This document shows, one piece after another, positions 1,248 to 44,052 of a stretch of DNA of 64,000 nt. Every line of letters starts with the position of its first letter. Within the stretch, counting starts at the first letter, position 1. The translations under genes and the position numbers were made by a program. The notes under the pieces are model-generated. The model worked only from the letters and a program-made list of their open reading frames with translations, was not told the DNA's origin and searched no databases. Source of the DNA: Gammaproteobacteria bacterium (GTDB lineage: Bacteria > Pseudomonadota > Gammaproteobacteria > JAADJB01); contig JAADJB010000033.1 in NCBI GenBank assembly GCA_013151035.1, positions 1 to 64,000 on the forward strand, read 5' to 3'.

Positions 1248-1260
1248 TTTTTATGCCTGT

Positions 1261-18032: not shown

Positions 18033-18104
18033 GAGACAGGGATTACTCTTCTCTAACAGAGACCGTTGCCCGCAGGGATGCGGGCATCGAGCCTCGAACT
18101 CACC
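18033..18104 (+). repeat. Three-hairpin repeat, copy a (deleted derivative)
   Basis: The left arm (from GAGACAGG at 18033) and hairpin 1, GCCCGC[AGGGAT]GCGGGC (18068-18085), are present. Hairpin 2 and the right arm are missing; the sequence jumps to TCGAACTCACC, which in copy b follows the right arm. This is an internal deletion. It lies just beyond the glmU stop. The hexaloop conforms to the C[ANGGAN]G pattern shared by all copies. Confidence 0.8.
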
Positions 18105-18112
18105 AAGCACAA

Positions 18113-19477
18113 TCACTTCTTCTTAACCGGCCGCTTCCACCCAATAATATTCTTCTGCGATACCCGGCTAATACTCAACGTGCCCTCCGGCACATCACCC
18201 GTAATCGTCGCACCCGCACCCACGGTCGCCTTATCACCCACCGTCACCGGTGCCACCAACTGAGTATCCGAACCAATAAAGACATCATCACCGATAATGG
18301 TACGATGTTTATTAGCCCCATCATAATTACAGGTAATTGTACCCGCCCCAATATTCACCCGCTGGCCTATCGTAGTATCACCAATATAACTCAGATGATT
18401 AACCTTACTGCCACTACCAACATCAGATTTTTTAATCTCAACAAAATTACCCACATGGACATGATCAGCCAGATTCGCCTCCGGACGCAGACGCGCAAAA
18501 GGCCCGACCTTTGATGAGTGCCCCACCTTGGCATCCTCAATCACACAATTCTCCAGAATAATTACATCATCCTCAATGACTGAATTACGAATAACACAAT
18601 TGGCACCAATACGAACATTGTTACCAATAACAACATTGCCCTCCAGAATGACATTGATATCAATCTCGACATCCTGACCGGCACTCACAATGCCTCGAAC
18701 ATCAATCCGTGCAGGATCACGCAAGGCAACCCCTGCCATCATCAATTCAAGTGCCTGCTGCTTCTGATAATAACGTTCCAGATGTGCCAATTGTCTGCGA
18801 TCATTCACACCAAAGATCTCTTCCGGGTAATTCGGGTGTTCGGTAGACACCTCAATACCATCCGCCACTGCCATAGCAATGACATCCGTCAGATAATATT
18901 CACCTTGTGAATTGTTACTACTCAAGGCAGATACCCAGCGCTTCATATGCTTTGCCGGTGCCGCCATAAAACCAGTATTCACCTCGCTAATCTGCCGCTG
19001 CTCATCGCTGGCATCCTTATGCTCAATAATAGCCGTAACCTGCCCCTGTTCATTCCTGACAATACGACCATAACCAGTGGCATCATCCAGCCTGGCAGTT
19101 AATAGACCCATCGTCTTATCGTTACAGAGAGAATAGAGACGAGTAAGGGTGGCGTGACCAATCAATGGCACATCACCATAAAGAATCAACAGAGTATCCT
19201 CATCCGAGATGCCATCCAGCGCCTGTGCCACCGCATGCCCCGTACCCAATTGTTCCTTCTGTTCAAACCACTCCACCTCACGATGAGAGCTTGTATTAAT
19301 AACCTGCTCCCCACCGTGACCATAGACCACACGAATTTGATGCGCACCCACCGACTCGGCACAATCAATAACATGTTCCAGCATGGGGCGATCCGCCAGT
19401 TTATGCAGTACCTTGGGAAGAGAAGAACGCATACGCGTACCCTGACCAGCGGCCAGTATAATAATGCTTAAACCCAT
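18113..19477 (-). CDS. glmU: Bifunctional GlmU: GlcN-1-P acetyltransferase / GlcNAc-1-P uridylyltransferase
   Basis: A 454-residue cytoplasmic enzyme that completes UDP-GlcNAc synthesis. The N-terminal pyrophosphorylase has [18 protein letters not shown] (residues 8-25) and LYGDVPLI near 98; the C-terminal left-handed beta helix has hexapeptide repeats from ~250 and the acetyl-CoA site region [20 protein letters not shown] near 360-380. It ends in GWKRPVKKK like E. coli GlmU (456 aa). It is followed by glmS across a repeat-filled gap. Confidence 0.98.
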
Positions 19478-19888
19478 AACGTCTGAATATTCCTCATTAA
19501 TTGTATTATTTTATCAGCCTTGTAGCGACCAAGCATATACTATCTTAAGGAGGATTATCTATATTGGTGCGTGGTACGCACCCTACCGGGTGACACCAAT
19601 CCTGGGTAGGGTGCGCACCGCGCACCATTAATCTGCGGTTAAAGGTTTTTTACCAAAACATAGATCCCCGCATTCGTGAGGATGACAAAGATGAATGCCT
19701 GTAAGCAGCCAGCCGATTTCGACACACAGAGATAATATGGGTTCGTGAAACGCTTCGAGGGGACACAGCAGATAAAGCCTGCTATGTCCCCGGTCTGTGC
19801 CAGCCTAAAAGCATACAAATAAAAAATTGCATATTTTCACAATAGTAATACTATAATGGTATTACATTTCTATTGGGTGGTAATAATT
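19478..19888. other. 411-base intergenic region filled with dispersed repeats
   Basis: 19564-19585 (GGTGCGTGGTACGCACCC) and 19606-19627 (GGGTGCGCACCGCGCACC) are a face-to-face pair of the GTGCG-type palindrome. CCCCGCATTCGTGAGGATGACAA follows at 19664. 19691-19791 is copy A of the second repeat family. A TATAAT (19852-19857) with TTGCAT 19 bases upstream is a candidate promoter for the toxin-antitoxin pair. No gene is seen. Confidence 0.6.
19691..19791 (+). repeat. Second repeat family, copy A, with 33-base hairpin
   Basis: It begins GATGAATGCCTGTAAGCAGC, then CAGCCGATTTCGACACACAGAG, an AT-rich spacer with GGTTCGTGAAACGCTTCGA, and ends in a hairpin with GGGGACA (19759-19765) and TGTCCCC (19785-19791) around CAGCAGATAAAGCCTGCTA. 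Copy B (20968-21073) has the same flanks, but the hairpin interior is the reverse complement of this one. Confidence 0.7.
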
Positions 19889-20107
19889 ATGCGAGTCACG
19901 ACAAAAGGGCAAGTTACAATCCCTAGAAATATAAGAGAAGTTTTAGGTATCAGCCCTGAAACAGAAATAGACTTCATTGAAGAAAATGGAAAGTTTTTTT
20001 TAGTAAAAACGGATGCTCCAGTGGTTAAAAGAAAATTTAAAAAATTTAGGGGTATAGCCACGGCAAAAATGTCAACCAATGAAATAATGGATTTGACAAG
20101 AGAATAA
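19889..20107 (+). CDS. AbrB/SpoVT-type antitoxin (VapB-like)
   Basis: A 72-residue swapped-hairpin DNA-binding protein. MRVTTKGQVTIPRNIREVLGI (residues 1-21) is the classic AbrB/MazE start (K-G-Q-V-T-I-P). The C-terminal half (KKFRGIATAKMSTNEIMDLTRE) would be the toxin-binding tail. ATG 19889 is chosen over ATG 19856 because it starts the domain and has GGTGG upstream. It lies two bases before the PIN gene. AT-rich compared with the glm and atp genes, in line with acquisition. Confidence 0.88.
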   Translation: MRVTTKGQVTIPRNIREVLGISPETEIDFIEENGKFFLVKTDAPVVKRKFKKFRGIATAKMSTNEIMDLTRE

Positions 20108-20109
20108 TA

Positions 20110-20520
20110 ATGAATGGCGTTTTTGTAGATTCATGTGTTCTACTCGATTTATTTACTGATGATCCAAGCTGGGGAGAGTGGTCAGAAAATATACTTGAAC
20201 AGTATAGTCAGACAAACACTTTATACATTAACTCAATTGTTTATACAGAAGTTTCTATCGGTTTTAATAAAATTGAAGAAGTAGAAAAAGCAATTTCAAA
20301 TCTTGGTATAAAAGTTTTAGAAATTCCCAGGGAAGCATTATTTCTCACGGGTAAGGTGTTTTTAAAATATAGAAAAAACAAAGGAACAAAAAATGCACCA
20401 TTGCCAGATTTTTTTATTGGCGCACATGTTTCTGTAGAAAAGTTTAATTTAATAACAAGAGATATAAACAAATACAAAACATATTTTCCGCAGGTTAATC
20501 TTATTCATCCAGAGCATTAA
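20110..20520 (+). CDS. PIN-domain toxin (VapC-like)
   Basis: A 136-residue PIN-domain ribonuclease, the toxin of a type II pair with the preceding AbrB-type antitoxin. VFVDSCVLLDLF (residues 4-15) carries the first active-site Asp; SIVYTEV near 45 gives the Glu; LPDFFIGAHV (~99-108) and LITRDINKY (~115-123) give the C-terminal acidic residues. All four positions are kept, so it looks active. Such toxins usually cleave tRNA or rRNA. Codon use is very AT-rich. No transposase is adjacent. Confidence 0.9.
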   Translation: MNGVFVDSCVLLDLFTDDPSWGEWSENILEQYSQTNTLYINSIVYTEVSIGFNKIEEVEKAISNLGIKVLEIPREALFLTGKVFLKYRKNKGTKNAPLPDFFIGAHVSVEKFNLITRDINKYKTYFPQVNLIHPEH

Positions 20521-20551
20521 CTATGAGTGAATTATCAAAAAGATCGACGGT

Positions 20552-20695
20552 TTACTTTAAAGCTTGGGGGAAATTACCATTCGTATCGTAATACCTCAGA
20601 TTACCAAGTACCTTATAATACAGGTTAGCCATCGATGAAACCGTTATAGTGGTAATTAATATGGCCGCACTTACCAATGTCTTTAATGTCTTCAT
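20552..20695 (-). CDS. Possible 47-residue secreted peptide
   Basis: ATG 20695 opens a frame starting MKTLKTLVSAAILITTITV, a credible signal peptide ending near SSMA (residue 23), followed by a short polar part, NLYYKVLGNLRYYDTNGNF. No good ribosome site is seen (TTAAGTCAATAAA), and no family is recognised. The signal-peptide pattern is the only support. Confidence 0.35.
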   Translation of the reverse strand: MKTLKTLVSAAILITTITVSSMANLYYKVLGNLRYYDTNGNFPQALK

Positions 20696-20895
20696 TTTAT
20701 TGACTTAAGAGATGGACTTAAACTGATTCCCTAACCATCAATATTATTATTTATTCCCAAGGCTGAAACACGCAATAATCATACCGATAATAATTATACT
20801 AGCAATATCAAGAAGTTACCAGTTATTTGAATTTAACAGATAAATCAAAGTGTAAAGTGAATCGACGATATTACACTATCCGAGGCTGGGTGGTT

Positions 20896-20981
20896 ACAGA
20901 CAGACAGCAGGGTGTTGGCCGCAGGGATGCGGCCATCAAGCCCCCAGGGATGGGTTCACGGCGGCCCTGATGAATGTCTGT
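20896..20981 (+). repeat. Three-hairpin repeat, copy e (diverged outer arms)
   Basis: Hairpin 1 is GGCCGC[AGGGAT]GCGGCC and hairpin 2 is GCCC[AGGGAT]GGGT, followed by TTCACGGCG as in other copies. The outer arms differ from all other copies yet still pair at both ends (ACAGACA with TGTCTGT, CAGGG with CCCTG). The right arm is shared with the second repeat family. Confidence 0.75.
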
Positions 20982-21152
20982 AAGTAGCCAGCCGGTTTCG
21001 ACGCACAGAGCATTAATGAGGTTCGTGGAACTCTTCGAGGGGACATAAGCAAGGCTTTATCTGCTGTGTCCCCTTAAGCACGTACCACAGGCTCAGAAAT
21101 GTTGGCATGCGGGGATAACCCTGATGAATGCCTGTAAGCAGCCAGCCGGTTT
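20968..21152 (+). repeat. Second repeat family, copies B and C
   Basis: Copy B (20968-21073): GATGAATGTCTGTAAGTAGC, CAGCCGGTTTCGACGCACAG, GGTTCGTGGAACTCTTCGA, then hairpin GGGGACATAAGC...GCTGTGTCCCC (21039-21073). Copy C (21122-21152) keeps only GATGAATGCCTGTAAGCAGC and CAGCCGGTTTC. Compared with copy A the hairpin interior (AAGGCTTTATCTGC versus GATAAAGCCTGC) is inverted. Confidence 0.7.
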
Positions 21153-21167
21153 CATCACACCGGGGGG

Positions 21168-21650
21168 TTAATGCAAACCAGGATTAGTAACAACGCCACT
21201 CTTTAGCTCTTGTTCGGTTGCCTCTCGAATGGACCCAACCTTGACATGAAAGTTTACTGTCTTGCCGGCAAAGATATGATTACCATCAACCGTCAGTGTA
21301 TCATCATCAATCTTGCTAACATAAAAGGTGCGGCTTTCACCGTCCTCATTCTGCATCTCAACCTCGGCACCAATCTTACGGAACTCCTCGGGTACATTTT
21401 CAAGATCATCGGTAAAGGTTAAACCGGGATCATATTCCCCAAAACCATCTTCTGGAGCAAGACGCACATCAACACTATCACCTTCCTTACAGCCTTGTAA
21501 GGCAAGATCAACCTTGGCGAACAAACGGGTCTGTCCACCTTGCAGGTAGCTCACGGGTAGATCACTCTGTTCAAGGATCTCGCCATCCTCAGCACGAATG
21601 CTATAGGTGACGGAGATAATTCGATTTTTTGCTACACGTAGATTTGACAT
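21168..21650 (-). CDS. FKBP-type peptidyl-prolyl isomerase, SlyD/FkpB-like
   Basis: A 160-residue cytoplasmic prolyl isomerase and chaperone. The pattern ITVTYSIRAEDGEILEQSD-like start (residues 12-30), LQGCKEGDSVDVRLAPEDGFGEYDP (near 51-75) and VDGNHIFAGKTVNFHVKV (near 121-138) are SlyD hallmarks, with the IF insert domain between. The His/Cys-rich nickel-binding tail of E. coli SlyD is absent; it ends VVTNPGLH. It sits downstream of the atp operon, separated by a three-hairpin repeat. Confidence 0.92.
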   Translation of the reverse strand: MSNLRVAKNRIISVTYSIRAEDGEILEQSDLPVSYLQGGQTRLFAKVDLALQGCKEGDSVDVRLAPEDGFGEYDPGLTFTDDLENVPEEFRKIGAEVEMQNEDGESRTFYVSKIDDDTLTVDGNHIFAGKTVNFHVKVGSIREATEQELKSGVVTNPGLH

Positions 21651-21677
21651 AAATTTAATACTATCTCATTAACTCAA

Positions 21678-21791
21678 GAGACAGGGATTGCTCCTCTTTA
21701 GCAGAGACCCTTGCCCGCAGGGATGCGGGCATGGAGCCTACATGGATGTATTCACGGCGTGTCTCTGATAAACAGGAGTGATTCATGTCTC
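21678..21791 (+). repeat. Three-hairpin repeat, copy b (complete)
   Basis: The left arm 21678-21708 and right arm 21761-21791 pair at about 25 of 31 positions. Between them, hairpin 1 is GCCCGC[AGGGAT]GCGGGC and hairpin 2 is TAC[ATGGAT]GTA. It lies between atpC and the FKBP gene, on the strand opposite to both, and could also act as their transcriptional boundary. Confidence 0.85.
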
Positions 21792-21817
21792 GAACTTACC
21801 AGGACAGCCGTGGTTAA

Positions 21818-22243
21818 TTATACTTTTGCTTTCTCTTTTGCCCGACGAATCGCATGCAGTTGTGCCGCAGCTTGAATCAGATCTGACTTCGCCTTGGCGT
21901 AATCAAAGTCTTCCTGCTTATCCGCCAGAATTTTTTCAGCCCTTTCCTTCGCCTCCAGTGCCGCCGCTTCATCAATATCCTTGGCACGCAAAGCGGTATC
22001 GGCTAACACCGTAACGACATGCGGTTGCACCTCAAGCAGACCACCCGAGACATAGAAAAACTGTTCCTCGCCATTCTCGGTTTGCACACGAACCTCACCC
22101 GGCTTCAAACGAGTCAACATCGGTGTGTGTCTGGGTGCAATACCCACCTCACCCATCTCGGCAGGTGCAAATACCATCGTTGCCAGGCCAGAAAAAATAC
22201 CCGCCTCGGCACTTACAATATCAACATGTATGGTCATTGGCAT
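21818..22243 (-). CDS. atpC: ATP synthase F1 subunit epsilon
   Basis: About 141 residues from ATG 22243 (GGAG eight bases upstream). [18 protein letters not shown] starts the N-terminal beta sandwich, and the C-terminal helices carry the regulatory hairpin ([17 protein letters not shown]). Epsilon joins gamma to the c-ring and can inhibit ATP hydrolysis. Last gene of the atp operon, 24 bases after atpD. Confidence 0.96.
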
Positions 22244-22267
22244 CTTTACAACTCCATTACCCACTGC

Positions 22268-23689
<1,422 letters not shown>

Positions 23690-23706
23690 TTACTGCTTAC
23701 CTGCGA

Positions 23707-24567
23707 CTATACTGCCGCTGCCCCACTGACAATCTCAGAGATTTCCTGAGTAATCGCAGCCTGTCGAGCCTTGTTATAAACCAGTTGTAATTCATCGATC
23801 ATATCACCGGCATTATCTGATGCCGCCTTCATGGCAACCATACGCGCGGATTGCTCACTGGCCTGATTCTCAACCACGCCCTGATACACCAGTGATTCGA
23901 TATAGCGCATCATCAACGCATCCATCACCTCTTTGGAATCGGGTTCGTAGATATAATCCCAGTGATGCTTGAGATTTTCATCCTCTACTCGCTGTATCGG
24001 TATCAACTGCTTAACCGTGGGCGACTGCGTCATAGTATTAACAAAATCATTATGTGCAATATACAAGGCATCAATCCGACCCTCGTTATGTGCATCCAGC
24101 ATCACCTTCACACTACCAATCAAGTCCTGAATACTGACCTGATCCTTAATCTGTGTCACCTTGGCAACAATATTGCCACCGTAACGCTTGAAGAACTGTG
24201 CCGCCTTGGAGCCGAATACAGTTAGATCAACCTCATAACCCTTAGCATTCCATTCTGCCATGGATCTGGCCACGGTCTTGAACAAATTGGTATTCAAACC
24301 ACCACACAGGCCACGATCGGTCGAGACCACGATCAAACCCACGCGCTTGATCTCTCGTTCCTGTAAATAAGGATGATGATATTCCGGGTGCGCCAGTGAC
24401 AGATGCGCCAATACATTGCTCATCTTTTCCGCATAAGGTCGGGAGGCCTGCATGCGTTCCTGTGCCTTACGCATCTTGCTTGCGGCAACCATCTCCATCG
24501 CCTTGGTGATCTTCTGAGTATTCTTGATACTCTTGATCTGGGTGCGTATTTCTTTTGCGCCAGCCAT
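23707..24567 (-). CDS. atpG: ATP synthase F1 subunit gamma (central shaft)
   Basis: A 286-residue shaft subunit. [20 protein letters not shown] (residues 5-24) is the N-terminal coiled-coil helix, and the C-terminal helix ends [29 protein letters not shown] (near 84-92) is a family hallmark. Length matches E. coli (287). It begins three bases after atpA ends, suggesting coupled translation. Confidence 0.98.
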
Positions 24568-24570
24568 TAT

Positions 24571-26112
24571 CTACCAGGCTCCATTGGCCATAAAATCATC
24601 CATCAAGGCGGTTAAACCGGTCTTCACTTCATCGGTGTAATCCGCTTCTGAATTGATCTTGTCCATCAAGGCTGAGTGATTGCTGGCCGCATAACTGTGT
24701 AGCGCAGCTTCATAGTCAACCACCTTGGTGGGTTCGACCTTATCAATATAACCCTCATTGACAGCAAACAGAGACAGTGACATCTCGGCTACACTCAAAG
24801 GCGCATACTGTTTCTGCTTCATCAGTTCGGTTACTCGCTGACCACGTTCCAACTGGGCACGGGTAATATCATCCAGATCCGAGGCAAACTGTGCAAAGGC
24901 TGCCAGCTCACGATACTGCGCCAGTGCCAGACGCACACCACCACCTAGCTTCTTAACAATCTTGGTCTGTGCTGCACCACCCACACGAGACACAGAAAGA
25001 CCGGCATCAATCGCTGGACGAATACCGGCATTAAACAGATCACTCTCCAGGAAGATCTGACCATCGGTAATTGAGATCACATTGGTAGGAACGAAGGCAG
25101 ATACGTCACCCGCCTGGGTCTCAATAATAGGCAGCGCGGTTAGTGAACCGGTCTTGCCCTTGACCTCACCATTGGTGAGCTTTTCAACCTCTTCCGCATT
25201 AATCCGTGCCGCACGTTCCAGCAGACGTGAATGAAGATAGAACACATCACCCGGATAGGCCTCACGACCGGGTGGACGACGTAACAATAGAGAAACCTGA
25301 CGATAGGCCCACGCCTGTTTAGTCAGATCATCATAAACAATCAGCGCATCTTCACCACGATCACGGAAATATTCACCCATGGTACAACCGGCGTAAGGCG
25401 CGATAAACTGCAAGGCAGCCGATTCAGCTGCAGCCGCAGCCACCACAATGGTATGCTCCATCGCACCGTGTTCTTCCAGCTTTCTAACCACCGCAGAGAT
25501 AGAAGAATTCTTCTGACCAATCGCCACGTAGATACACTTAATGCCGGTACCCTTCTGATTGATGATGGCATCAAGTGCCACCGCCGTCTTACCCGTCTGG
25601 CGATCACCAATAATTAATTCACGCTGACCACGACCTACCGGCACCATCGCATCAATGGCCTTCAGCCCGGTTTGTACCGGCTGATCAACTGACTTACGAC
25701 TAATTACACCCGGTGCAATCTTTTCAATCGGTGCCGTCATTGTGGTCGCAATATCACCCTTACCATCAATCGGATTACCCAGCGCATCTACCACGCGACC
25801 CAGCAAGGCCTCACCCACTGGCACCTCCAGGATATTGCCGGTACAACGCACCGTATCACCTTCCGAGATATGCTTGTAATCACCCAGTACCACCGCACCG
25901 ACTGAATCACGTTCCAGGTTCAGTGCCATACCAATGGTATTACCCGGCATTTCAATCATCTCGCCTGACATCACATCAGACAGACCATGGATACGTGCGA
26001 TACCGTCGGTTAAACTAATGACCGTACCTTCTGTACGCGCTTCTGAACCGATATCAAAGTTTTCAATTCGACTTTTAATCAGTTCACTAATTTCAGATGG
26101 TTTGAGTTGCAT
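24571..26112 (-). CDS. atpA: ATP synthase F1 subunit alpha
   Basis: A 513-residue non-catalytic nucleotide-binding subunit, identical in length to E. coli Atp[20 protein letters not shown] starts it, Walker [10 protein letters not shown] is near 169-177, and the C-terminal helical domain follows ~380. The arginine finger lies in the conserved [15 protein letters not shown] (~365-379). Confidence 0.98.
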
Positions 26113-26125
26113 TTACTATTTTCCT

Positions 26126-26662
26126 CTAATGGATCAGGGCGCTTGCCAAGCGATTAAGCTTGCCCTGTGCCGAACCGTCAATTACTAAATCACCTGCCTG
26201 TATAATGGCACCGCCGATCAATGTTTCATCGGTCTTACATTCCAGGTGTATCTCTCGTCCTAATTTAACCTTTAAGGCATTACATATACTCGTCTTCTGC
26301 TGTTCCGTTGCTGGACGTGCGGTAATCAATTGAGCATCAATAGAACCCGCTGCACGGTTACGCTCAACCTCATACAAATGAGCCATATCCGGTAACAATG
26401 CAATTCGTTGATTAAGCAACAATAACCGCACCAGGTTTAACCCCGCTTCAGGGAGATCATCACCCAATATACCACTGAACAATTCGAGCTTTTGCTCATT
26501 GCTCACCCGGGGATTACCCAGAAAGCTAACCGCCTCTGCATCGGCAGCAATCAGAGCCAGCCCCTGCAATATATCCGACCATGAGTCCAAGCTATCCGTA
26601 GACTGTGCCAGATCAAAGATGGCCTGCACATAAGGACGCGCAATGGTTGTATTTTCAGCCAT
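26126..26662 (-). CDS. atpH: ATP synthase F1 subunit delta
   Basis: A 178-residue stator protein joining F1 to subunit b. The helical N-terminal domain starts TTIARPYVQAIFDLAQ; the C-terminal motif GGAIIQAGDLVIDGSAQGKLNRL (~149-171) is the family signature. It is 14 bases after atpF and 13 bases before atpA. Confidence 0.97.
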   Translation of the reverse strand: MAENTTIARPYVQAIFDLAQSTDSLDSWSDILQGLALIAADAEAVSFLGNPRVSNEQKLELFSGILGDDLPEAGLNLVRLLLLNQRIALLPDMAHLYEVERNRAAGSIDAQLITARPATEQQKTSICNALKVKLGREIHLECKTDETLIGGAIIQAGDLVIDGSAQGKLNRLASALIH

Positions 26663-26676
26663 AAACTTTTAAACCC

Positions 26677-27147
26677 TTACAGTTCCGCAACCAGCTTGGT
26701 TAACATGGCATCATGAGCGGCATCATCAATCTCACGCTCTAATACCCGGGTCGCACCAATAACAGCAAGACTGGCAACCTGACCACGTAACTCTTCACGC
26801 GCACGATGGACTTCCTGATCAATCTCGCCACGCGCCGCCTGCACAATGCGCTGACCCTCTACGCGGGCATCATCCTTGGATGCCTCAACAAGCTCAGCAG
26901 CACGTTTTTCAGCACGGGCAATAATCTCATTCGCCTGCTGCTTGGCCTCATGAATGGTACCGATTGCCTTCTTCTGTGCCAACTCATGCTCATGCATGCC
27001 ACGCTCAGCCGCTGCCAAACCATCAGCAATCGTCTTCTTGCGTTCGTCCATCGCCTGCATAATGGGTGGCCACACAAACTTCATGCAGAACCACACAAAG
27101 AATACAAACGATATTGCCTGGCCGATTAAGGTTGCATTAATATTCAT
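26677..27147 (-). CDS. atpF: ATP synthase Fo subunit b
   Basis: A 156-residue peripheral-stalk subunit of E. coli length. One membrane helix (TLIGQAISFVFFVWFCMKFV, residues 6-25) is followed by a long charged coiled coil. GQAISFVFFVWFCMKFVWPPI matches the family start. It anchors delta and alpha against rotation. Confidence 0.97.
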   Translation of the reverse strand: MNINATLIGQAISFVFFVWFCMKFVWPPIMQAMDERKKTIADGLAAAERGMHEHELAQKKAIGTIHEAKQQANEIIARAEKRAAELVEASKDDARVEGQRIVQAARGEIDQEVHRAREELRGQVASLAVIGATRVLEREIDDAAHDAMLTKLVAEL

Positions 27148-27202
27148 TCTATTACCTCATAACCCTTTCTGATAAACCACACATCAGGATTAATAAATGG
27201 TT

Positions 27203-27454
<252 letters not shown>

Positions 27455-27495
27455 CTACTTGGATAAAATTATAAATTAAAGTTAAAAATTAAAAA

Positions 27496-28347
<852 letters not shown>

Positions 28348-28701
28348 CTATTTTTTCCTGTCAAAAAAACCTGCAAGAATCAGGGCAACCTGACCCACTA
28401 CAAAACCTGTTAATAAACCTGTTGGCTCAAGCGCTAAAGGCCCAAACCCCAATATCAGTAGCCCGATTATAGCGACCATACGCTCAATAAATGAGAGATA
28501 AAAGTTGCGCAGGTGACGTTGAGCATCCTGTGGATCCAACTGTTTACATCGCGCCGACCGCCAGACCATCAATAAGATACTGGTGATCGCAATCAATCCC
28601 CCAAACAATACGGCTTGAGCCAGCGACAACCCTCTGTACCAGAGCGAAAACATAACCGCTGTAGCAATAAAAATTATCTGTAATCTTAATATGTTACGCA
28701 T
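28348..28701 (-). CDS. atpI: ATP synthase subunit I (assembly factor)
   Basis: About 117 residues from ATG 28701, starting MRNILRLQIIFIATAVMF; an upstream TTG would extend it without family support. Four hydrophobic segments fit AtpI/UncI, which helps c-ring assembly. It is the first gene of the atp operon, three bases before atpB. Confidence 0.85.
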   Translation of the reverse strand: MRNILRLQIIFIATAVMFSLWYRGLSLAQAVLFGGLIAITSILLMVWRSARCKQLDPQDAQRHLRNFYLSFIERMVAIIGLLILGFGPLALEPTGLLTGFVVGQVALILAGFFDRKK

Positions 28702-28880
28702 GAAATACCCGTTATTGCGCAACGCTTGTTTGTACTTAAGGCGCAAAAAACCACGCCTTAAACCTACAAGACGGCGCAAGTATAAAGAGTTACGAAACCA
28801 AGGTCAATGATAGGCTAATAAAAAAATTTTATGAGGTATAAGCTAAATTATAGTTTGCTAATATAGGTGACAGGATTTTG

Positions 28881-28925
28881 TTGGGTTACGGCTGCGCCTC
28901 AGCGTGCCCTTTGGGTAAACCCAAC
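28881..28925. repeat. Dispersed TTGGGTT...AACCCAA hairpin repeat
   Basis: TTGGGTTACGGCTGCGCCTC (28881-28900) is followed by AGCGTGCCC and GGGTAAACCCAACCTAC. It resembles the hairpin at 7943-7976. It ends ten bases beyond the parB stop and may terminate parB transcription. Confidence 0.55.
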
Positions 28926-28934
28926 CTACAAGTC

Positions 28935-29801
28935 TTAACGAATGCGTTCCAATACACCGTCTAGCTCTTCCAGGCTATTATAACTAATCGTTAATTTCCC
29001 TTTACCTTTACGGCTGTGCTGAATCTTCACCATAGCACCCAGCTTTTCTGATAATTCCTGTTCCAGATGCAGGGTATTGGTATCCCCAGCGGGCTTCTTC
29101 GCTGGCTTACTCTCTTTATTCAAGCGATTCTTTACTAAGGCCTCGGTCTGTCTAACGGATAAACCCTTAGCAACAATATCAATCGCCAGCTCTCTTTGCC
29201 CCTGGGCATCGAGCGGCAACAAGGCACGAGCATGACCCATCTCCAGCTCACCTCGGTCAATATGCTGTTTCACCTGACCATCCAGATCCAACAAACGCAA
29301 CAAATTACTAACCGTGGTACGGGAACGACCTACCGCAGCCGCAGCCTCTTTATGAGTCATATCAAATTCTTCAATCAGACGTTGCAGTGCACGCGCCTCT
29401 TCCAGTGGATTCAAATCCTCACGCTGGATGTTCTCAATCAGCGCCATGGCAATGGCAGCCTTGTCCTCAACCTGCCGAATCACAACCGGGATCTCATCCA
29501 AACCAGCAATCTGAGCTGCACGCCAACGCCGCTCACCGGCAATAATCTCGTAACGCCCCTTATCAATCAAACGTACAACAATAGGCTGCACCACACCCTG
29601 GGCGCGAATCGAATCCGCCAGATCATCCAGTGACTCAGTATGCATATTATGGCGTGGCTGATAGACCCCGCGTTGAATCACATCCAGCGGCAAGGCGCGT
29701 AATTCACCCTCGACTCGAGACTGTTCAACCGGAACATTCGGTGACGAACCACTCAGCAAGGCATCCAACCCACGCCCTAAACCTCTTTTTTTAACTGCCA
29801 T
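28935..29801 (-). CDS. parB: Chromosome partitioning protein ParB
   Basis: A 288-residue parS-binding CTPase. KKRGLGRGLDALL (residues 4-16) is the usual start, GERRWRAAQIAGL (~89-101) is the CTP-binding GERRW motif, THKEAAAAVGRSRTTVSNLLRLL (~151-173) is the DNA-binding HTH, and the C-terminus is the dimerisation domain. Two parS sites lie in recF. It follows parA with a gap of 170 bases occupied by a three-hairpin repeat. Confidence 0.97.
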   Translation of the reverse strand: MAVKKRGLGRGLDALLSGSSPNVPVEQSRVEGELRALPLDVIQRGVYQPRHNMHTESLDDLADSIRAQGVVQPIVVRLIDKGRYEIIAGERRWRAAQIAGLDEIPVVIRQVEDKAAIAMALIENIQREDLNPLEEARALQRLIEEFDMTHKEAAAAVGRSRTTVSNLLRLLDLDGQVKQHIDRGELEMGHARALLPLDAQGQRELAIDIVAKGLSVRQTEALVKNRLNKESKPAKKPAGDTNTLHLEQELSEKLGAMVKIQHSRKGKGKLTISYNSLEELDGVLERIR

Positions 29802-29866
29802 AGATTCTATACCACCATCCTGTTAACCACTTAACTGCTACCCACCAACCGCTCACATAACGACTA

Positions 29867-29980
29867 GAGACAGGGATTGCCTATCTTTATCAGAGACCGT
29901 TGGCCGCATGGACGCGGCCATCGAGCCACCATGGATGGTTTCACGGCGTGTCTCTGATAAAGATAGGCAATTCATGTCTC
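29867..29980 (+). repeat. Three-hairpin repeat, copy c (best-paired)
   Basis: Arms 29867-29897 and 29950-29980 pair at 28 of 31 positions. Hairpin 1 is GGCCGC[ATGGAC]GCGGCC and hairpin 2 is CACC[ATGGAT]GGTT. The right arm overlaps the parA 3' end: parA's last codons GAG ACA TGA are the end of the repeat read on the other strand. It interrupts the parA-parB gap. Confidence 0.9.
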
Positions 29981-30754
29981 GGATTTAACGTCCTCTTCAC
30001 GCCGCAAAACCTCTCCCGCCAACGCCAGATAAGCCACCGCCCCACGCGAACTCTTGTCATAATCCAACACCGGCACACCATGACTCGGTGCCTCCGCCAG
30101 ACGCACATTACGCGGAATAATTGTACGATAAACGGTATCACCAAAGTGTTGCAACAGTTGATCCGATACCTCATTGGCAAGATTATTCCGCGCATCAAAC
30201 ATCGTGCGTAACAAACCTTGTAGACGTAAACCAGGATTAATACTGGAACGCACCTGTTCAATAGTGTCCAATAATGAGGTTAACCCCTCCAGCGCATAAT
30301 ATTCACACTGTATAGGAACCAACACACCATGTGCAGCGGTTAATGCGTTCAAGGTCAACAGGCTTAATGAGGGCGGGCAATCAATGACAATATAATCATA
30401 TTCATCCTGCACCTCAGCCAGTGCTGATTTAAGGCGTAATTCACGACCCGGCTCATTCATCAAACGGACTTCAGCGGCGGTAAGATCTCCACTACCCGCC
30501 AACAGATGATAATCAACCGCCTCATTAACCACCCGAGCCTTACGAATACTGGTCTCGTTCAATAAGACCTCATAACCGGTTAACTCGACCTCGTACTTAT
30601 CGGTACCACTACCCATAGTCGCATTACCTTGCGGATCCAGATCAACCAATAACACCCTGCGCTTGGTTAAAGCCAGGGCAGCTGCCAGATTAACACTGGT
30701 GGTGGTCTTACCCACACCGCCTTTTTGATTCACTACTGCAATGATCTTTGCCAT
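29972..30754 (-). CDS. parA: Chromosome partitioning ATPase ParA (Soj)
   Basis: A 260-residue deviant Walker ATPase. KGGVGKTTTSVNLA (residues 11-24) is the P-loop with signature Lys, VLLVDLDPQGNAT (~34-46) is the A' motif, and YIVIDCPPSLSLLT (~112-125) is Walker B. It forms nucleoid gradients that move ParB-parS. It starts five bases after rsmG ends. The last three codons come from the three-hairpin repeat. Confidence 0.97.
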   Translation of the reverse strand: MAKIIAVVNQKGGVGKTTTSVNLAAALALTKRRVLLVDLDPQGNATMGSGTDKYEVELTGYEVLLNETSIRKARVVNEAVDYHLLAGSGDLTAAEVRLMNEPGRELRLKSALAEVQDEYDYIVIDCPPSLSLLTLNALTAAHGVLVPIQCEYYALEGLTSLLDTIEQVRSSINPGLRLQGLLRTMFDARNNLANEVSDQLLQHFGDTVYRTIIPRNVRLAEAPSHGVPVLDYDKSSRGAVAYLALAGEVLRREEDVKSET

Positions 30755-30759
30755 CTTAT

Positions 30760-31443
30760 TCAGCAGCCTTCTTCATCGGTATAGCGCATGATAACAAGAT
30801 GTCTCTCTGCATCCAGGAAGGGAACATCCAGCGTGACAACCTCTTCCACTACACTTTGATCTTCCAGCGCCTCAATCTCGGTCATTGGATAGACACCCTT
30901 CATCGCCAACAGTTGCACGTCACTATTACAAACACGCGCTGCCAATTGAACCATCGTGTCCAGGGACAAAAGTGCTCGGCTGATAATAACGTCTACCTTT
31001 TCCTCTGGCTTATATTCCTCATCACGCGCACTCACCACAGTCACATTATCCAGTTCCAGCTCAGCCACCACCTGTTTGACAAAGCGCAGCTTTTTGTCAC
31101 TGGAATCGAGTAAAATCAAGTGGTTATCTGGACATGCCAGTGCCAGAACAATACCCGGCAGACCCGCACCTGTACCCACATCCAGCACGCGGCCAGAATC
31201 CAGATAAGGCACCACCGCCAGACTATCGAGGATATGCCGAATCACCATATCATAAGGCTTTCTAACCGCCGTCAGGTTATAAATACGATTCCACTTGACC
31301 AGCATATCCACATAGGCCAACAGCTTTTTCTGTGCCTCATCGCTGACCACCAGGTTTGAAAATTCAATTCCTTTACGCAACAAAGAGGCATAATTGCCTT
31401 CACTACTACGGCCTGACGACCTTTTTCTCATCGATGGATGCAA
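30760..31443 (-). CDS. rsmG: 16S rRNA m7G527 methyltransferase RsmG
   Basis: A 227-residue SAM-dependent methyltransferase. WNRIYNLTAVR (~52-62), VLDVGTGAGLPGIVLA (SAM motif I, ~88-103) and VVSARDEEY are RsmG hallmarks. The start is uncertain: TTG 31443 has GAGG six bases upstream, while ATG 31431 has none. It lies between mnmG (12 bases) and parA (five bases), the standard gidA-gidB-par operon. Confidence 0.95.
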   Translation of the reverse strand: MHPSMRKRSSGRSSEGNYASLLRKGIEFSNLVVSDEAQKKLLAYVDMLVKWNRIYNLTAVRKPYDMVIRHILDSLAVVPYLDSGRVLDVGTGAGLPGIVLALACPDNHLILLDSSDKKLRFVKQVVAELELDNVTVVSARDEEYKPEEKVDVIISRALLSLDTMVQLAARVCNSDVQLLAMKGVYPMTEIEALEDQSVVEEVVTLDVPFLDAERHLVIMRYTDEEGC

Positions 31444-31455
31444 GACTGACCTCTT

Positions 31456-33348
31456 TTACGCACTCTTACGCAGTGCAATACCATTTTTCTTAAGGTGAAC
31501 CAGCAGCAAAGAAATAGCCGCTGGTGTGACACCCGGAATACGCCCCGCCTGACCAACAGTCAACGGACGGTGCGCCTGAAACTTTTCCTCTACCTCGGAA
31601 GACAGCCCCTTGATTAACGTATAATCCAGATCATCGGGTAGAACATACTCTTCATATTTCTGCAGACGTTTAATCTCGGCATCCTGACGCTGAATATAAC
31701 CCGCATACCGAGCCTGAATCTCAACCTGTTCTGCAACCTGCCTATCATCAACGCCTGGGCCCACATCGTCAAGTGCCATTAGCTGTTGATAATCAATCTC
31801 TGGACGCGCCAATAACTCAGCAATGCGCTGCACCGATGATATCGGTGTCGCAAACCACTGTTGAATCTGTTGTGCCTGTTGGGTTCCCGGATGGACCAGA
31901 ATACCCTGCAAACGCTGTTGTTCATTATCAATGGCTTCACGTTTAAGTTCAAAGGATTTCCAGTGAACATCATCAACAAGACCCAGTGCCTTTGCCTGCG
32001 ATGTTAAACGCAGGTCCGCATTATCCTCACGTAAACGCAAGCGGTACTCCGCACGACTGGTAAACATACGGTACGGCTCACTAGTACCACAGGTAATTAA
32101 ATCATCAATCAAAACACCGAGATAGGCCTCGTCCCGGCGTGGATACCAGGCCTCTTGTTGCTGCACCTGACGTGCCGCATTCAGACCGGCCAACAGGCCT
32201 TGAGCTGCCGCCTCTTCATAACCTGTGGTGCCATTAATCTGCCCGGCAAAATAGAGCCCCTTAATAAAACGGGTTTCTAGCGAATATTGCAGGTCACGCG
32301 GATCAAAGAAATCATACTCAATAGCATAACCCGGACGCGTGATATGTGCCTGTTCCAGACCGGGGATAGAACGTACCAGATCACACTGTACATCAAAGGG
32401 CAGACTGGTCGAGATCCCGTTAGGATAAACCTCATGGGTCGTCAGCCCCTCCGGTTCAAGAAAGATCTGATGCGAATCACGCCCGGAAAAACGTACCACC
32501 TTATCCTCAATCGAGGGACAATAACGCGGCCCAACCCCTTCAATCACACCGCTATACATCGGTGAACGTGGCAGACCATTACGGATAATCGCATGGGTCT
32601 GTTCCGTGGTTGCAGTAATAAAACAGGACAGCTGTTGCGGGTGATCTTGCGGCTTACCGCGAAAAGAAAATAATGGTACCGGCTGATCCCCTGGCTGCTC
32701 TTGCAGGCCCGAATAATCAATCGTACGCCCATCAATCCTTGGCGGTGTACCGGTCTTTAAACGTCCCACCCGAAACGGCAACTCACGCAGACGTTGAGAC
32801 AAGGCATTAGCCGGTGGATCACCGGCACGTCCACCTTCCGCATTTGACTCACCAATATGGATGCGCCCGCCTAAAAAAGTACCTACCGTCAAGACCACAG
32901 CCGGAGCCATAAAGCGCAAGCCCATGCTGGTTATCACACCACAAACTCGTTCACCCTCAACGATCAGATCATCCACGGATTGTTGAAATAGGGTTAGATT
33001 GGGCTGATTTTCCAGCGTGGAACGAACAATATTCCGATACAAGATGCGATCTGCCTGAGCACGGGTTGCCCGCACCGCCGGGCCCTTAGTGGCATTTAAT
33101 ATACGAAACTGAATACCCGCCACATCCGCCGCATGTGCCATCAGACCACCCATAGCATCAATCTCGCGCACTAGATGTCCCTTGCCAATACCACCGATAG
33201 CCGGATTACAGCTCATCTGCCCCAGGGTATCAATATTGTGGGTTAATAATAACGTGCGCGCACCCATACGCGCAGCCGCCAACGCCGCCTCGGTACCCGC
33301 ATGACCGCCACCCACAATAATGACCTCAAAGGAATCTTGATAACGCAC
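31456..33348 (-). CDS. mnmG: tRNA uridine-5-carboxymethylaminomethyl enzyme MnmG (GidA)
   Basis: A 630-residue FAD protein that with MnmE installs cmnm5 at tRNA U34. The FAD site [20 protein letters not shown] (residues 10-29), [21 protein letters not shown] (~49-69) and [19 protein letters not shown] (~196-214) are invariant family blocks. Length is as in E. coli (629). It leads the mnmG-rsmG-parAB unit. Confidence 0.98.
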
Positions 33349-33417
33349 TTGAATCTTTCCTAACTATAGAACAGATGTATTTTATACTAATTCATAGGCT
33401 TATAACCAAAATAGTTG

Positions 33418-33480
33418 TTGGTGCGTGGTACGCACCCTACCAAAACCATAACACTTCCGTAGGGTGCGCACTGCGCACCA
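33418..33480. repeat. Inverted pair of GTGCG-type palindromes
   Basis: GGTGCGTGGTACGCACCCTACC (33420-33441) and GTAGGGTGCGCACTGCGCACCA (33459-33480) face each other across a 17-base spacer, as at 19564-19627. They occupy the divergent gap between mnmG and the moxR gene. Confidence 0.75.
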
Positions 33481-33543
33481 CATGCCTAAACCGGAATAGA
33501 GTCAAGACTTGACCTCATCCACACTTTGCATAAAACTAGAACG

Positions 33544-34458
33544 ATGCTAAAAGAAAAGATTGATGAAGGTATCCGCCAAGCCAGTGAGATTATCCTCGGC
33601 AAAGAAAAAAAGATTCGCCTGGCACTCGCTTGTCTACTGGCTCGGGGCCACCTGCTGATTGAGGATCTACCCGGCATTGGTAAGACCACCTTGTCGCATG
33701 TACTGGCGAGTATCCTCGGTCTGAAATATCAACGTATCCAATTCACCAGCGACTTATTACCCGCTGACATCCTCGGCGTATCCATCTACGAAGCCGAGAA
33801 TCAATCCTTCCGTTTTCACCCTGGGCCCATCTTTGCCCAAATGATTCTCGCCGATGAGATCAACCGTGCCACACCCAAGGCACAAAGTGCTCTACTTGAG
33901 GCGATGGAGGAACAGCAAGTATCAATTGAAGGTAGTAGCTATCCTCTGCCACAACCCTTTTTTATTATTGCCACCCAAAATCCAAACGATCAGGTCGGTA
34001 CCTTTCCGCTACCCGAGTCACAACTGGATCGCTTTATGATGCGTATTGAACTCGGTTATCCGGATGCCAATGCAGAACGAGCCTTGCTCAATGGCCATCA
34101 ACATCGTGATCTCATACCGCAACTGAAGGCTGTCATTAACACCGCTGAGTTACTACAGATTCAAGCCGAAATTCGAAATATTACAGTTAGCCCAGCTATT
34201 ATCGAATATCTGCAAGTCATCCTCGATTTTAGTCGCAACAGTCCGCTGTATCTACATGGCCTGTCACCACGTGCCGGGCTTGCAATCTTACACTGTGCCC
34301 AGTCCTGGGCCTGGCTCCATAAACGAGGGTATGTGTTGCCTGAAGATATCCAGCAAGTGCTCCCTTATATCAGCCAGCATCGATTGCAGGCAACAGACCC
34401 CTCGACCCAACAAGGTGATACCCTGATCAATCCCTTACTGGAACTGCCTGTTCCCTAA
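33544..34458 (+). CDS. MoxR-family AAA+ ATPase
   Basis: A 304-residue AAA+ chaperone-like ATPase. LIEDLPGIGKTTLSHVLA (~37-54) is Walker A, MILADEINRATPKAQSALLEAMEE (~100-123) is the Walker B and MoxR signature, and FIIATQNPNDQVGTFPLPESQLDRF (sensor 1) follows. ATG 33544 is used; an upstream TTG is less likely. It leads a moxR-DUF58-transglutaminase cluster, a common arrangement thought to aid folding or activation of partners, here on an insert between mnmG and mnmE. Confidence 0.93.
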   Translation: MLKEKIDEGIRQASEIILGKEKKIRLALACLLARGHLLIEDLPGIGKTTLSHVLASILGLKYQRIQFTSDLLPADILGVSIYEAENQSFRFHPGPIFAQMILADEINRATPKAQSALLEAMEEQQVSIEGSSYPLPQPFFIIATQNPNDQVGTFPLPESQLDRFMMRIELGYPDANAERALLNGHQHRDLIPQLKAVINTAELLQIQAEIRNITVSPAIIEYLQVILDFSRNSPLYLHGLSPRAGLAILHCAQSWAWLHKRGYVLPEDIQQVLPYISQHRLQATDPSTQQGDTLINPLLELPVP

Positions 34459-34475
34459 CCGACTATTGAAATTCT

Positions 34476-35468
34476 ATGCCAAGCCCTATCAGGAATACCT
34501 TGTCCCGAATGATGAAGAAACGACAAGCCAATAGTCACCATGGCCCTGTCACCCTCCACGGTCGACAAATATTTATCCTGCCAACCCGAGCAGGTCTTGG
34601 CTTTGGTCTACTCATCACCCTGTTACTCATTGGTGCCATTAATTACAACAACAACCTGATCTATATACTCACCTTCACCCTGTCTGGCCTATTTTTTATC
34701 GCCATGTTACACACCTATCGCAACCTGCTTGGCCTGCAACTTACCGTGCAACAAACCGAACATTGTTTTAGCGGTGCCCAGGTTGCCTTTCATCTACAGA
34801 TACAACACCCGAATAACCGGATACTGCACAGCTCTATTGAACTAAATAACCCACAGAGTAATTCTCTTATTACCCAGGTCATAGCAAACCAACCCAGCCA
34901 CTTGATTATCTATCTACCCGGAACCCAAAGAGGACAAGTGACACTGGGAATAATAACTCTATCGACACAATTCCCACTGGGTATTTTTCGTGCCTGGTCC
35001 AATATTTATTTTACTATCAATGCCTATGTCTACCCGAAACCAGCACCCCTCAATACCCCTTATCCCTACATGAGTGGAGGTCAATCCAGCGGTCTCACCA
35101 ACACCAACGGAGGTGATGATTTTTACGGTCTACGTCCACATCAAGCAAGCGACTCTCTACATCACATACACTGGAAGATTGCAGCCCGCAGTGGCAAACT
35201 GATGACCAAGATTTTTTCCGAAGATCAATCCCATATCCTATTACTGGATTGGGATCATATTGCAGAAACAAATCTGGAGAAAAAACTCAGTCTGTTATGT
35301 CGCTGGATACTGGATGCCCATCAGCAGGCTATTCCCTTTGGTCTAAATATACCTGGACACCGAATAAAACCGGATAGCGGAATTAACCATCGTGATCAGT
35401 GCCTACGCGCACTGGCCTGTTATGACACAACATCAGTTAACTCAAGAGATATGAGGGGCTCTTCTTGA
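34476..35468 (+). CDS. DUF58 protein with repeat-derived C-terminus
   Basis: A 330-residue DUF58 protein of the MoxR-associated type. Two membrane helices (~38-80) precede a beta-sandwich region and a conserved segment with GDDFYGLRPHQASDSLHHIHWKIAARSGKL (~208-237), the DUF58 signature (R-x-Y-x-x-G-D-x-x-x-x-I-x-W-x). The last residues SRDMRGSS and the stop codon fall inside the left arm of three-hairpin repeat copy d (from 35446), so the original 3' end has been replaced. Confidence 0.9.
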   Translation: MPSPIRNTLSRMMKKRQANSHHGPVTLHGRQIFILPTRAGLGFGLLITLLLIGAINYNNNLIYILTFTLSGLFFIAMLHTYRNLLGLQLTVQQTEHCFSGAQVAFHLQIQHPNNRILHSSIELNNPQSNSLITQVIANQPSHLIIYLPGTQRGQVTLGIITLSTQFPLGIFRAWSNIYFTINAYVYPKPAPLNTPYPYMSGGQSSGLTNTNGGDDFYGLRPHQASDSLHHIHWKIAARSGKLMTKIFSEDQSHILLLDWDHIAETNLEKKLSLLCRWILDAHQQAIPFGLNIPGHRIKPDSGINHRDQCLRALACYDTTSVNSRDMRGSS

Positions 35469-35559
35469 ACAGAGACCGTTGCCCGCATGGACGCGGGCAT
35501 CGAGCCTACACGGATGTATTCACGGCGTGTCTCTGATCAAGAGGAGCCACTCATGTCTC
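35446..35559 (+). repeat. Three-hairpin repeat, copy d
   Basis: Arms 35446-35476 and 35529-35559 pair at 27 of 31 positions. Hairpin 1 is GCCCGC[ATGGAC]GCGGGC and hairpin 2 is TAC[ACGGAT]GTA. It starts within the DUF58 coding sequence, provides its stop codon (35466-35468), and fills the gap before the transglutaminase gene. It is the only copy on the sense strand of an operon. Confidence 0.9.
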
Positions 35560-43462: not shown

Positions 43463-43812
43463 GATTGAATACGCACCCAGTTCCTCTCCAATATTTTCTG
43501 CAATACCTGATTGTTATTGCTAGCCATATTTGCTCGAGCAACAACAATAATGTCGATGCCCTTCAATATGGATTGATTATGACGGAAGCTTTCCCTCGCT
43601 ACACGCTTGATCCGATTACGATCGACCGCCTTTTTTACATTTTTTTTGGCTATAGCCAAACCTAAACGAGATATCCCATATGTATTTTTTGTCGCAATAA
43701 TCAGCATTGTTTTTTCATGAAAACGAATGCCTGTGTTAAATACATTGCGGTATTCAGAGGGCTTCAATAAACGCTGGCATCTGGAAAAATGAAAACGATG
43801 TGCTACTAACAA
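43447..43812 (-). CDS. rnpA: Ribonuclease P protein component
   Basis: A 121-residue basic protein. RLGLAIAKKNVKKAVDRNRIKRVARESFR (~50-78) contains the RNR motif for binding RNase P RNA. Start is taken as TTG 43812, as no upstream ATG exists and the region matches the family start. It overlaps yidD and follows rpmH by 28 bases. Confidence 0.95.
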   Translation of the reverse strand: MLVAHRFHFSRCQRLLKPSEYRNVFNTGIRFHEKTMLIIATKNTYGISRLGLAIAKKNVKKAVDRNRIKRVARESFRHNQSILKGIDIIVVARANMASNNNQVLQKILERNWVRIQSCKQF

Positions 43813-43840
43813 AGGTCTTCAGCCCGCGCTATCAATGACT

Positions 43841-43975
43841 CTAGGCAGATAAACGTGCGCGGCCTTTTGCCCGACGAGCCTTGATTATAAGACGTCCATT
43901 TTTTGTGCTCATACGAGCACGAAAACCATGATTGCGTTTACGCTTAAGGTTACTAGGTTGAAATGTTCTTTTCAT
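43841..43975 (-). CDS. rpmH: Large ribosomal subunit protein bL34
   Basis: A 44-residue protein: [20 protein letters not shown] at the start, then [10 protein letters not shown] and a basic tail ending RARLSA. Length and sequence are typical of L34. It is the first gene of the minus rpmH-rnpA-yidD-yidC unit, with a promoter at 44053-44081. Confidence 0.98.
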
Positions 43976-44052
43976 CGTGTTGACTGCCAATAGCTAAAAA
44001 TTAATAAGGTTGAAGCATACCACCCCATCCAGAGTGGTGCCGGAGACGCGCA

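Follow-up and report, generated by a model that had tools for sequence, protein, structure and literature searches.

The window analysed here, a 64,000-nucleotide stretch of a gammaproteobacterial contig, carries five plus-strand copies of a palindromic repeat whose hairpin loops resemble those recognized by CsrA/RsmA proteins, which raises the question of whether this repeat is a mobile DNA element, an RNA ligand or both. From its fold and the covariation of its stems, the constancy of its loops, the folding bias of the GGA strand, and its copy number, genomic orientation and distribution, we favour, with a little better than even confidence, a mobile palindromic repeat of non-autonomous, MITE/REP-like type with a conserved CsrA-type RNA module; we infer that such a repeat would move, that its GGA strand would be transcribed and that CsrA would bind the transcript.

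The five copies in the window and their fold

All five positions given in a preliminary description were confirmed (Table 1). The architecture proposed there, an outer stem enclosing hairpin 1 and hairpin 2, applies to copies b, c and d with the family's own arms; the remaining two differ. Copy a is truncated, with hairpin 2 and the entire 3' arm deleted and hence no outer stem, and the right-end sequence TCGAACTCACCAAGCAC directly follows its hairpin 1. Copy e shares only the core with the family; its outer arms (ACAGACA/TGTCTGT) are unrelated to those of the other copies and belong to a different repeat, found again at 19680 and 21113, and its fold extends to approximately 20881-20998. The 31-nt outer arms of copy c are near-perfect (94% complementary). 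Copy b is flanked by two minus-strand genes and lies immediately downstream of the atpC-like ORF, copy c is antisense to both flanking ORFs (parA-like and parB-like), and copy d is sense to both of its neighbours, two plus-strand ORFs.

Table 1. Coordinates of the repeat copies and their parts in the window
Feature	Position	Strand	Description
Copy a	18033-18094	+	truncated
Copy a, 5' arm	18033-18063	+	
Copy a, hairpin 1	18064-18089	+	loop AGGGAT
Copy e	20896-20982	+	two-hairpin core; CM match 20901-20976, 73.8 bits
Copy e, hairpin 1	20913-20938	+	loop AGGGAT
Copy e, hairpin 2	20940-20962	+	loop AGGGAT
Copy b	21678-21791	+	full element, 114 nt; CM match 21697-21772, 88.3 bits
Copy b, 5' arm	21678-21708	+	
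Copy b, hairpin 1	21709-21734	+	loop AGGGAT
Copy b, hairpin 2	21736-21758	+	loop ATGGAT
Copy b, 3' arm	21761-21791	+	
Copy c	29867-29980	+	full element; CM 90.8 bits
Copy c, hairpin 1	29898-29923	+	loop ATGGAC
Copy c, hairpin 2	29925-29947	+	loop ATGGAT
Copy d	35446-35559	+	full element; CM 86.4 bits
Copy d, hairpin 1	35477-35502	+	loop ATGGAC
Copy d, hairpin 2	35504-35526	+	loop ACGGAT

Hairpin 1 had been described as a 6-bp stem; the stem is real, but its length is about 10 bp, with a C(G/C)TTGCCCGC/GCGGGCATC(G/C)G-like sequence. In the modelled fold, hairpin 2 probably extends into GCC...TTCAC...GGC to form a three-way junction. RNA fold z-scores lie far beyond chance (-6.6 for copy b, -9.0 for c and -5.6 for e). 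The covarying stems first noticed among the five copies also hold with more copies: among 41 aligned copies, of which 38 come from other bacteria and 3 from the window, double compensatory changes were present at 22 of 28 pairs, and the covariation score was 0.677, compared with 0.17 after shuffling; with the partners slid it did not exceed 0.154. The outer stem, which covaries over at least 12 bp, and the hairpin 1 stem vary by lineage, yet 91% of cells still pair and double changes number 316.

The ratio of G-U pairs to A-C mismatches was 62:16 with one copy per locus (GU excess at 37 loci, AC excess at 6; p=1.6e-6), 146:36 in the outer stems of the source-genome copies and 66:22 in the outer stem from a model-based alignment. 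Thus, with G-U pairs three to four times as frequent as A-C mismatches, the GGA strand is the folding strand. An earlier outer-stem count of 48:44 was discarded because fixed offsets had put copies whose hairpin 1 is longer out of register.

Constant GGA loops and csrA in the hosts

The loops read ANGGAY, with any second base and T the most frequent. Class-wide, GGA is kept in 139 of 143 hairpin 1 loops and in 143 of 143 hairpin 2 loops, which bears out the CsrA-type ANGGAN loops of the preliminary description. It is also present in hairpin 2 of all 31 copies outside the seed pattern, and in hairpin 1 it persists despite altered loop size (AGGAT, AGGAC) and closing pair (A-T, G-C). Like CsrA/RsmA-binding RNA, the repeat thus presents GGA in hairpin loops, and these loops match the published SELEX consensus for CsrA, RUACARGGAUGU (PMC7652899); an exact UACARGGAUGU is found in hairpin 2 of 15 of 77 copies from the source genome and 13 of 125 from others. 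In 90 of 118 cases the two GGAs are 23 nt apart, and the two constrained loops look like paired CsrA/RsmA sites of the kind that one CsrA dimer could bridge. In addition, some copies, in the source genome and in a Cellvibrionaceae MAG, contain a nested extra module with two further GGA hairpins, inside either hairpin 1 or hairpin 2.

The source genome has csrA (C27:8783-8938, MLILTRR...VHREEI), almost unchanged from the E. coli-like sequence and retaining the RNA-binding residues L4 and R44. The gene was found in 74 of the 75 element-bearing genomes, the other having elements and no detected csrA. Among 46 genomes lacking csrA, one carries the element (p=3e-4 without phylogenetic correction), an association in which phylogeny and genome size are confounders.

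CsrA binding by the repeat is plausible from its sequence. A transcript of the GGA strand would form a three-way junction with a long outer stem of free sequence, in which hairpin 1, C...C[ANGGAY]G...G, would be followed by a linker A and by hairpin 2, GCC NN C[ANGGAY]G NN UUYAC GGC. One CsrA dimer might bridge the two loops, 23 nt apart, and on a transcribed copy CsrA would either act locally on the carrier RNA or be titrated.

Copy number, orientation and rival readings

The palindromic repeat unit of 114 bp is present in ~107 copies in the 2.4-Mb source genome (115 CM matches at E<0.01), including full-length gapless copies with a common extended end sequence, and of 370 gammaproteobacterial genomes sampled, 75 contain its core (~20% of the class); the family is therefore far larger than the five copies initially described. 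Presence across the class is patchy, with large lineage-specific expansions: at least 111 copies in S. maltophilia, at least 150 in each of two Xanthomonas genomes and 137 in Saccharospirillum. The search of phages and plasmids gave no convincing match and one IMG/VR contig. The repeat shares with MITEs a multicopy, non-coding nature and terminal inverted repeats (31-nt arms with an imperfect extension into the flanks). No target duplication or parent transposon was seen in the flanks examined or when 845 kb were scanned for solo ends, which returned only truncated or internally deleted copies; with relatives no nearer than the class level for comparison, no empty site was demonstrated. Inspection of the shared end sequence by eye revealed no conserved promoter-like block.

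Of the 88 source-genome copies in tandem-gene gaps, 77 run antisense to the genes on both sides, and therefore the operon mRNA carries the complementary strand. GC skew is negative on the GGA strand of 95 of 107 copies (89%, p=3e-17), and this polarity of a near-palindromic repeat persists in convergent and divergent gaps (17 of 18 copies), where transcription favours neither orientation. Replication strand predicts orientation better than gene direction does (Fisher p=3e-4), which rules out transcription alone as the cause; in the source genome, orientation is set mainly by replication strand. Replication polarity was absent from S. maltophilia, Xanthomonas, Arenimonas and Saccharospirillum and from the class sample (97 of 177), so a universal polarity is ruled out. 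Gene context showed no sense bias class-wide, and in other genomes convergent gaps outnumbered divergent ones as hosts (22 versus 10).

Such strong polarity leaves room for some DNA-level process, and the rival that survives best, raised in outline in the preliminary description and given here a limited but real chance, is that the hairpins arise in DNA that is single-stranded at the replication fork and that a transposase or another DNA enzyme recognizes their ANGGAY loops, with no RNA role. Long palindromes of free sequence would suit cruciform or hairpin DNA, and the inverted pairs that are frequent in other genomes, mostly 80-230 bp apart (22 '-+' versus 6 '+-'), resemble REP dimers. However, the excess of G-U over A-C on the GGA strand fits RNA and is less expected for DNA, the polarity is missing outside the source genome in the groups named above, and neither a constant GTAG tag nor, in 845 kb, a parent transposon was found. 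Moreover, the lagging-strand template that this polarity would expose is the complement rather than the GGA strand, which is the opposite of what would suit known single-strand transposases, for example those of IS200/IS605.

We consider it improbable that the ~100 copies form a dedicated dispersed sponge, jointly maintained as transcripts that titrate CsrA. Of the earlier CsrA interpretation, the loops and the covariation stand, and this further step is not supported in the source genome: since most copies there are antisense in operon gaps, a bulk sponge role is unlikely in that genome, and the patchy presence and lineage expansions are more in keeping with mobile DNA than with a regulator that is maintained. 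The consensus-like loops, their pairing and spacing, the additional GGA hairpins and the presence of csrA would all suit a sponge, as would a pull-down with RsmA, RsmE and RsmI of P. putida that recovered intergenic regions beside ISPpu8, one of them described as a long palindrome, which may belong to this family (PMC7937890). Equally doubtful is a 3'-UTR or operon hairpin like YPAL, ERIC or BIME, whose mRNA-strand fold would block decay or be cut by RNase III and so tune its neighbours, the loop being incidental: short tandem-gene gaps host the source-genome copies, convergent gaps are commoner than divergent ones elsewhere, and a stable fold (-51 to -70 kcal/mol) is also obtained for the mRNA-sense strand, which is the strand of the Ysr224 model, but the invariant GGA loops amid freely changing stems and the folding bias of the other strand are left unaccounted for.

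Counting against the mobile repeat with a CsrA-type module, which we still prefer, are the antisense bias, the class-wide lack of sense bias, the lack of a promoter-like block and the modelling of Ysr224 on the opposite strand. As a more tentative extension, which we hold to be possible although not probable, a class-wide mobile repeat family would spread CsrA sites and thereby rewire or buffer the Csr network, and in some hosts, the source bacterium included, the fork would orient insertions so that the CsrA-binding strand stays off the main transcripts. If CsrA does bind, genomes with at least 100 copies would carry hundreds of mobile CsrA sites, a selfish repeat would be linked to global regulation, and one easily tested ligand would be common to Xanthomonas, Stenotrophomonas, Marinobacter and numerous marine genera.

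Comparison with known systems

The repeat shares with ERIC, YPAL (likened by description only) and REP/BIME elements (PMC3733652) a short, non-coding, intergenic and palindromic nature, tens to hundreds of copies and, in some hosts, common dimers; it differs in forming a three-way junction, in which two loops are constant and the stems free, and in its replication-strand polarity in the source genome. REPs carry a terminal GTAG or CGTC tag on a single hairpin (PMC3733652), and identity with them was rejected, since GTAG is not constant and CGTC was seen by eye near hairpin 1 in some lineages only. CsrB, CsrC and RsmX/Y/Z likewise combine several short hairpins per molecule with GGA in the loops, but they are stand-alone sRNA genes, whereas the repeat is dispersed and has no visible promoter of its own.

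Rfam gave no family at gathering level at the window copies. The consensus of the Yersinia sRNA Ysr224 (RF02770), once reverse-complemented, aligns with the repeat as GCGCCagGGATGGCGC...GAGCCTACATGGATGTATTTACGGCGT, although this model represents the opposite strand, has NUCCNU loops and scores 24.8 bits against a gathering threshold of 70. Alike in architecture is the TwoAYGGAY RNA motif (RF01731; PMC2864571), in which a long, poorly conserved outer stem encloses two neighbouring hairpins with AYGGAY-type loops, as in our repeat, and whose reported hosts include gammaproteobacteria. Two Marinobacter elements align across the entire RF01731 model, but they score 35.2 and 33.0 bits and the source-genome copies at most 22, below the gathering threshold of 43 bits. 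In addition, hairpin 2 of the repeat has a fixed GCC/UUYAC/GGC base that is missing from the RF01731 consensus, and the repeat is dispersed and high-copy. TwoAYGGAY has itself been suggested as a CsrA ligand, its binding being so far proposed (PMC4333381), and with this precedent the CsrA-ligand reading of the present repeat is not new in kind.

Fold and loops of the repeat

The repeat is a 114-nt palindrome in which an outer stem and two hairpins meet at a three-way junction. All five copies named in the preliminary description were located where it had placed them, all on the + strand (see table); however, two are family copies only in part, as copy e has the common core with different outer arms, found again at 19680 and 21113, and copy a lacks hairpin 2 and the 3' arm. 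The arm repeat of copy e forms a second element family in the source genome, with or without the GGA core. RNA folding of copies b, c and e gave the three-way junction that had been proposed (z-scores -6.6, -9.0 and -5.6), and each strand is able to fold, as expected of a palindrome.

The covariation claimed for the stems was borne out in a 41-row alignment, where standard pairs filled 90.6% of cells (63.4% when shuffled), 316 cells had changed on both sides (90 when shuffled) and sliding the pair partners abolished the signal. Between genera, the outer stem differs wholly in sequence while complementarity is kept. The GGA loops, too, are kept well beyond the five copies, in hairpin 1 of 139 and hairpin 2 of all 143 distinct copies, counts that come from a covariance model itself favouring GGA-type loops. 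Among 31 copies outside the search pattern, GGA was present in hairpin 1 of 30 and hairpin 2 of 31, and thus its constancy is not a search-pattern artefact. In hairpin 1, both loop size and closing pair change around a constant GGA (CAGGATG, AAGGGATT, GAGGGACC, GGGGACC), and 90 of 118 copies have a GGA-to-GGA distance of 23 nt.

Because a G-U pair on one strand is an A-C mismatch on the other, a bias between them marks the fold that is kept. On the GGA strand, whose loops read ANGGAY, G-U pairs outnumbered A-C mismatches by 66:22 in the outer stem and 27:8 in hairpin 1; once each locus was represented by a single copy, 37 loci showed a GU excess and 6 an AC excess (p=1.6e-6), and the source-genome outer stems gave 146:36, counts partly common to related copies. 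This bias says that it is the fold of the GGA strand that is preserved. The simplest reason is RNA; folding of single-stranded DNA, which the preliminary description had imagined being recognised by a transposase, would be a less simple one.

A nested insert adding two further hairpins is present in some copies of the source genome and in one from a Cellvibrionaceae genome; the insert-bearing copies probably descend from few events. In two distant lineages the module occupies the loop of either hairpin 1 or hairpin 2; once, at locus L187, it lies apart from the usual core.

Features of the window and of related loci
Feature	Location	Remarks
Copy a	window 18033	
Copy e	window 20896	
Copies b, c, d	window 21678, 29867, 35446	full 114-nt elements; mutual alignment gapless
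Repeat with arms that make the copy e outer stem	window 19680-19765, 21020-21160	
Replication origin region	window 43800-44214	GC skew changes sign
DUF3800-V RNA (Rfam RF02964)	window 1155-1251	45.4 bits, above cut-off
Dispersed repeat TGCATTCCCACGCAGAGCATGGGAACGA	window 2107, 3193, 3573, 50509 (-)	four copies
Short palindromic repeat TGGTGCGTGGTACGCACCCTACC	window 3623, 17988, 19560, 19604 (-), 33414	also adjoins repeat copies in other contigs
csrA	source-genome contig C27:8783-8938	
Nested module	loci L089:4034-4158; L183:8915; L184:8888; L187:1649 (- strand)	~50 nt: CATGGATG hairpin, TAGA, GCAGGAGC hairpin
Second two-AYGGAY element type	Marinobacter locus L092:6215-6340 (-)	nearer RF01731 (35.2 bits), weakly matched by R1

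Copy number and host range

A blastn-type search found at least 40 copies in the source genome (2.40 Mb, 54 contigs), and R1, a covariance model made from three window copies and 38 from other bacteria, gave 115 matches there at E<0.01, of which about 107 are strong. Full copies share a further ~15-20 nt per side (tgtcccgttaactcaa...gaacttaccaggcat), an imperfect extension of the terminal inverted repeat. At least 120 stretches in GTDB genomes match the pattern GAGCCNNCANGGAYGNNTTYACRGCG; among the matches listed, titles are gammaproteobacterial, save two named only Proteobacteria, and the hosts are Xanthomonas, Stenotrophomonas, Arenimonas, Marinobacter, Microbulbifer, Rheinheimera, Cellvibrio, Alteromonas, Shewanella, Methylococcaceae and others. 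At E<=1e-6, the element was matched in at least 75 of 370 class genomes, each at least 90% complete, a lower bound because scoring was limited to 13 candidates per genome. Copy number is at least 111 in S. maltophilia D457, at least 150 in each of two Xanthomonas and 137 in Saccharospirillum. The element carrying the loop pair behaves like mobile DNA.

Inverted pairs of copies are frequent in xanthomonads and other hosts (L068, L079, L104, L107, L132, L148 and others); the two members are mostly separated by 80-230 bp, and their GGA strands usually face outward (22 '-+' vs 6 '+-').

Orientation and the sponge reading

For 107 source-genome copies, placed by crude ORF calling, tandem gaps held 72 antisense and 5 sense copies among leading-strand genes, and 5 antisense and 6 sense among lagging-strand genes. 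The GGA strand lay on the negative-skew side in 17 of the 18 copies from convergent or divergent gaps and in 95 of the 107 copies overall (p=3e-17). Transcription alone was ruled out as the cause of orientation (p=3e-4). The window is consistent with this genome-wide polarity: GC skew is -0.147 left and +0.135 right of 44 kb, the origin is flanked by rnpA/yidC/mnmE-like ORFs on - and dnaA/dnaN/recF/gyrB-like ORFs on + (identities resting on gene order and lengths), and all five copies lie to its left, at most 26 kb away, reading +, so that the GGA strand is the lagging nascent strand (leading template).

Replication-strand polarity was absent in the other hosts of the same family examined, whose only gene-context preference was for convergent over divergent gaps; polarity is thus a property of the source lineage. 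Replication-coupled insertion is a possible cause there; alternatively, copies may be lost when the strand that folds better serves as the lagging template.

The dispersed CsrA sponge proposed earlier is not a natural reading in the source genome, since operon mRNA carries the complement of the GGA strand. Outside the source genome, roughly half the copies follow a gene in sense orientation, so that local CsrA action or CsrA titration may take place in those hosts.

CsrA and known relatives

The source genome encodes CsrA, as a CsrA-binding role presupposed, with L4 and R44 in place. csrA was detected in 324 of 370 class genomes and, comparing the listed genome handles of element and csrA matches, in 74 of 75 element-bearing genomes (Fisher p=3e-4, a statistic that ignores phylogeny and small genomes); no csrA was found in one genome (G184, 98% complete) that contains 9 or more elements. 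The CsrA SELEX consensus is RUACARGGAUGU, with GGA mostly in a hairpin loop (PMC7652899); exact UACARGGAUGU occurs in hairpin 2 of 15 of 77 source-genome copies and 13 of 125 others. The two loops appear to be under selection as a CsrA-type pair and are predicted sites. In P. putida, all three Rsm proteins pulled down intergenic regions beside ISPpu8, one of which is described there as long and palindromic (PMC7937890), an independent lead that may concern the element family.

An Rfam search at the five copies gave no family at gathering level. Our literature search, with subscription papers mostly outside its scope, found no published account of the family as a dispersed repeat, which is weak evidence of novelty. 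When reverse-complemented, Ysr224 (RF02770) reads as the element, which suggests that at least the non-GGA strand is transcribed in Yersinia. TwoAYGGAY (RF01731), earlier proposed as a CsrA ligand (PMC4333381), shares the element's plan; end-to-end alignments of two Marinobacter elements to it score 35 and 33 bits, and source-genome copies reach 22 bits, all below the cut-off of 43. The element would work like TwoAYGGAY but is a non-member by that family's own test. Known CsrA-sequestering RNAs carry many GGA hairpins per molecule, as would the copies with the nested insert.
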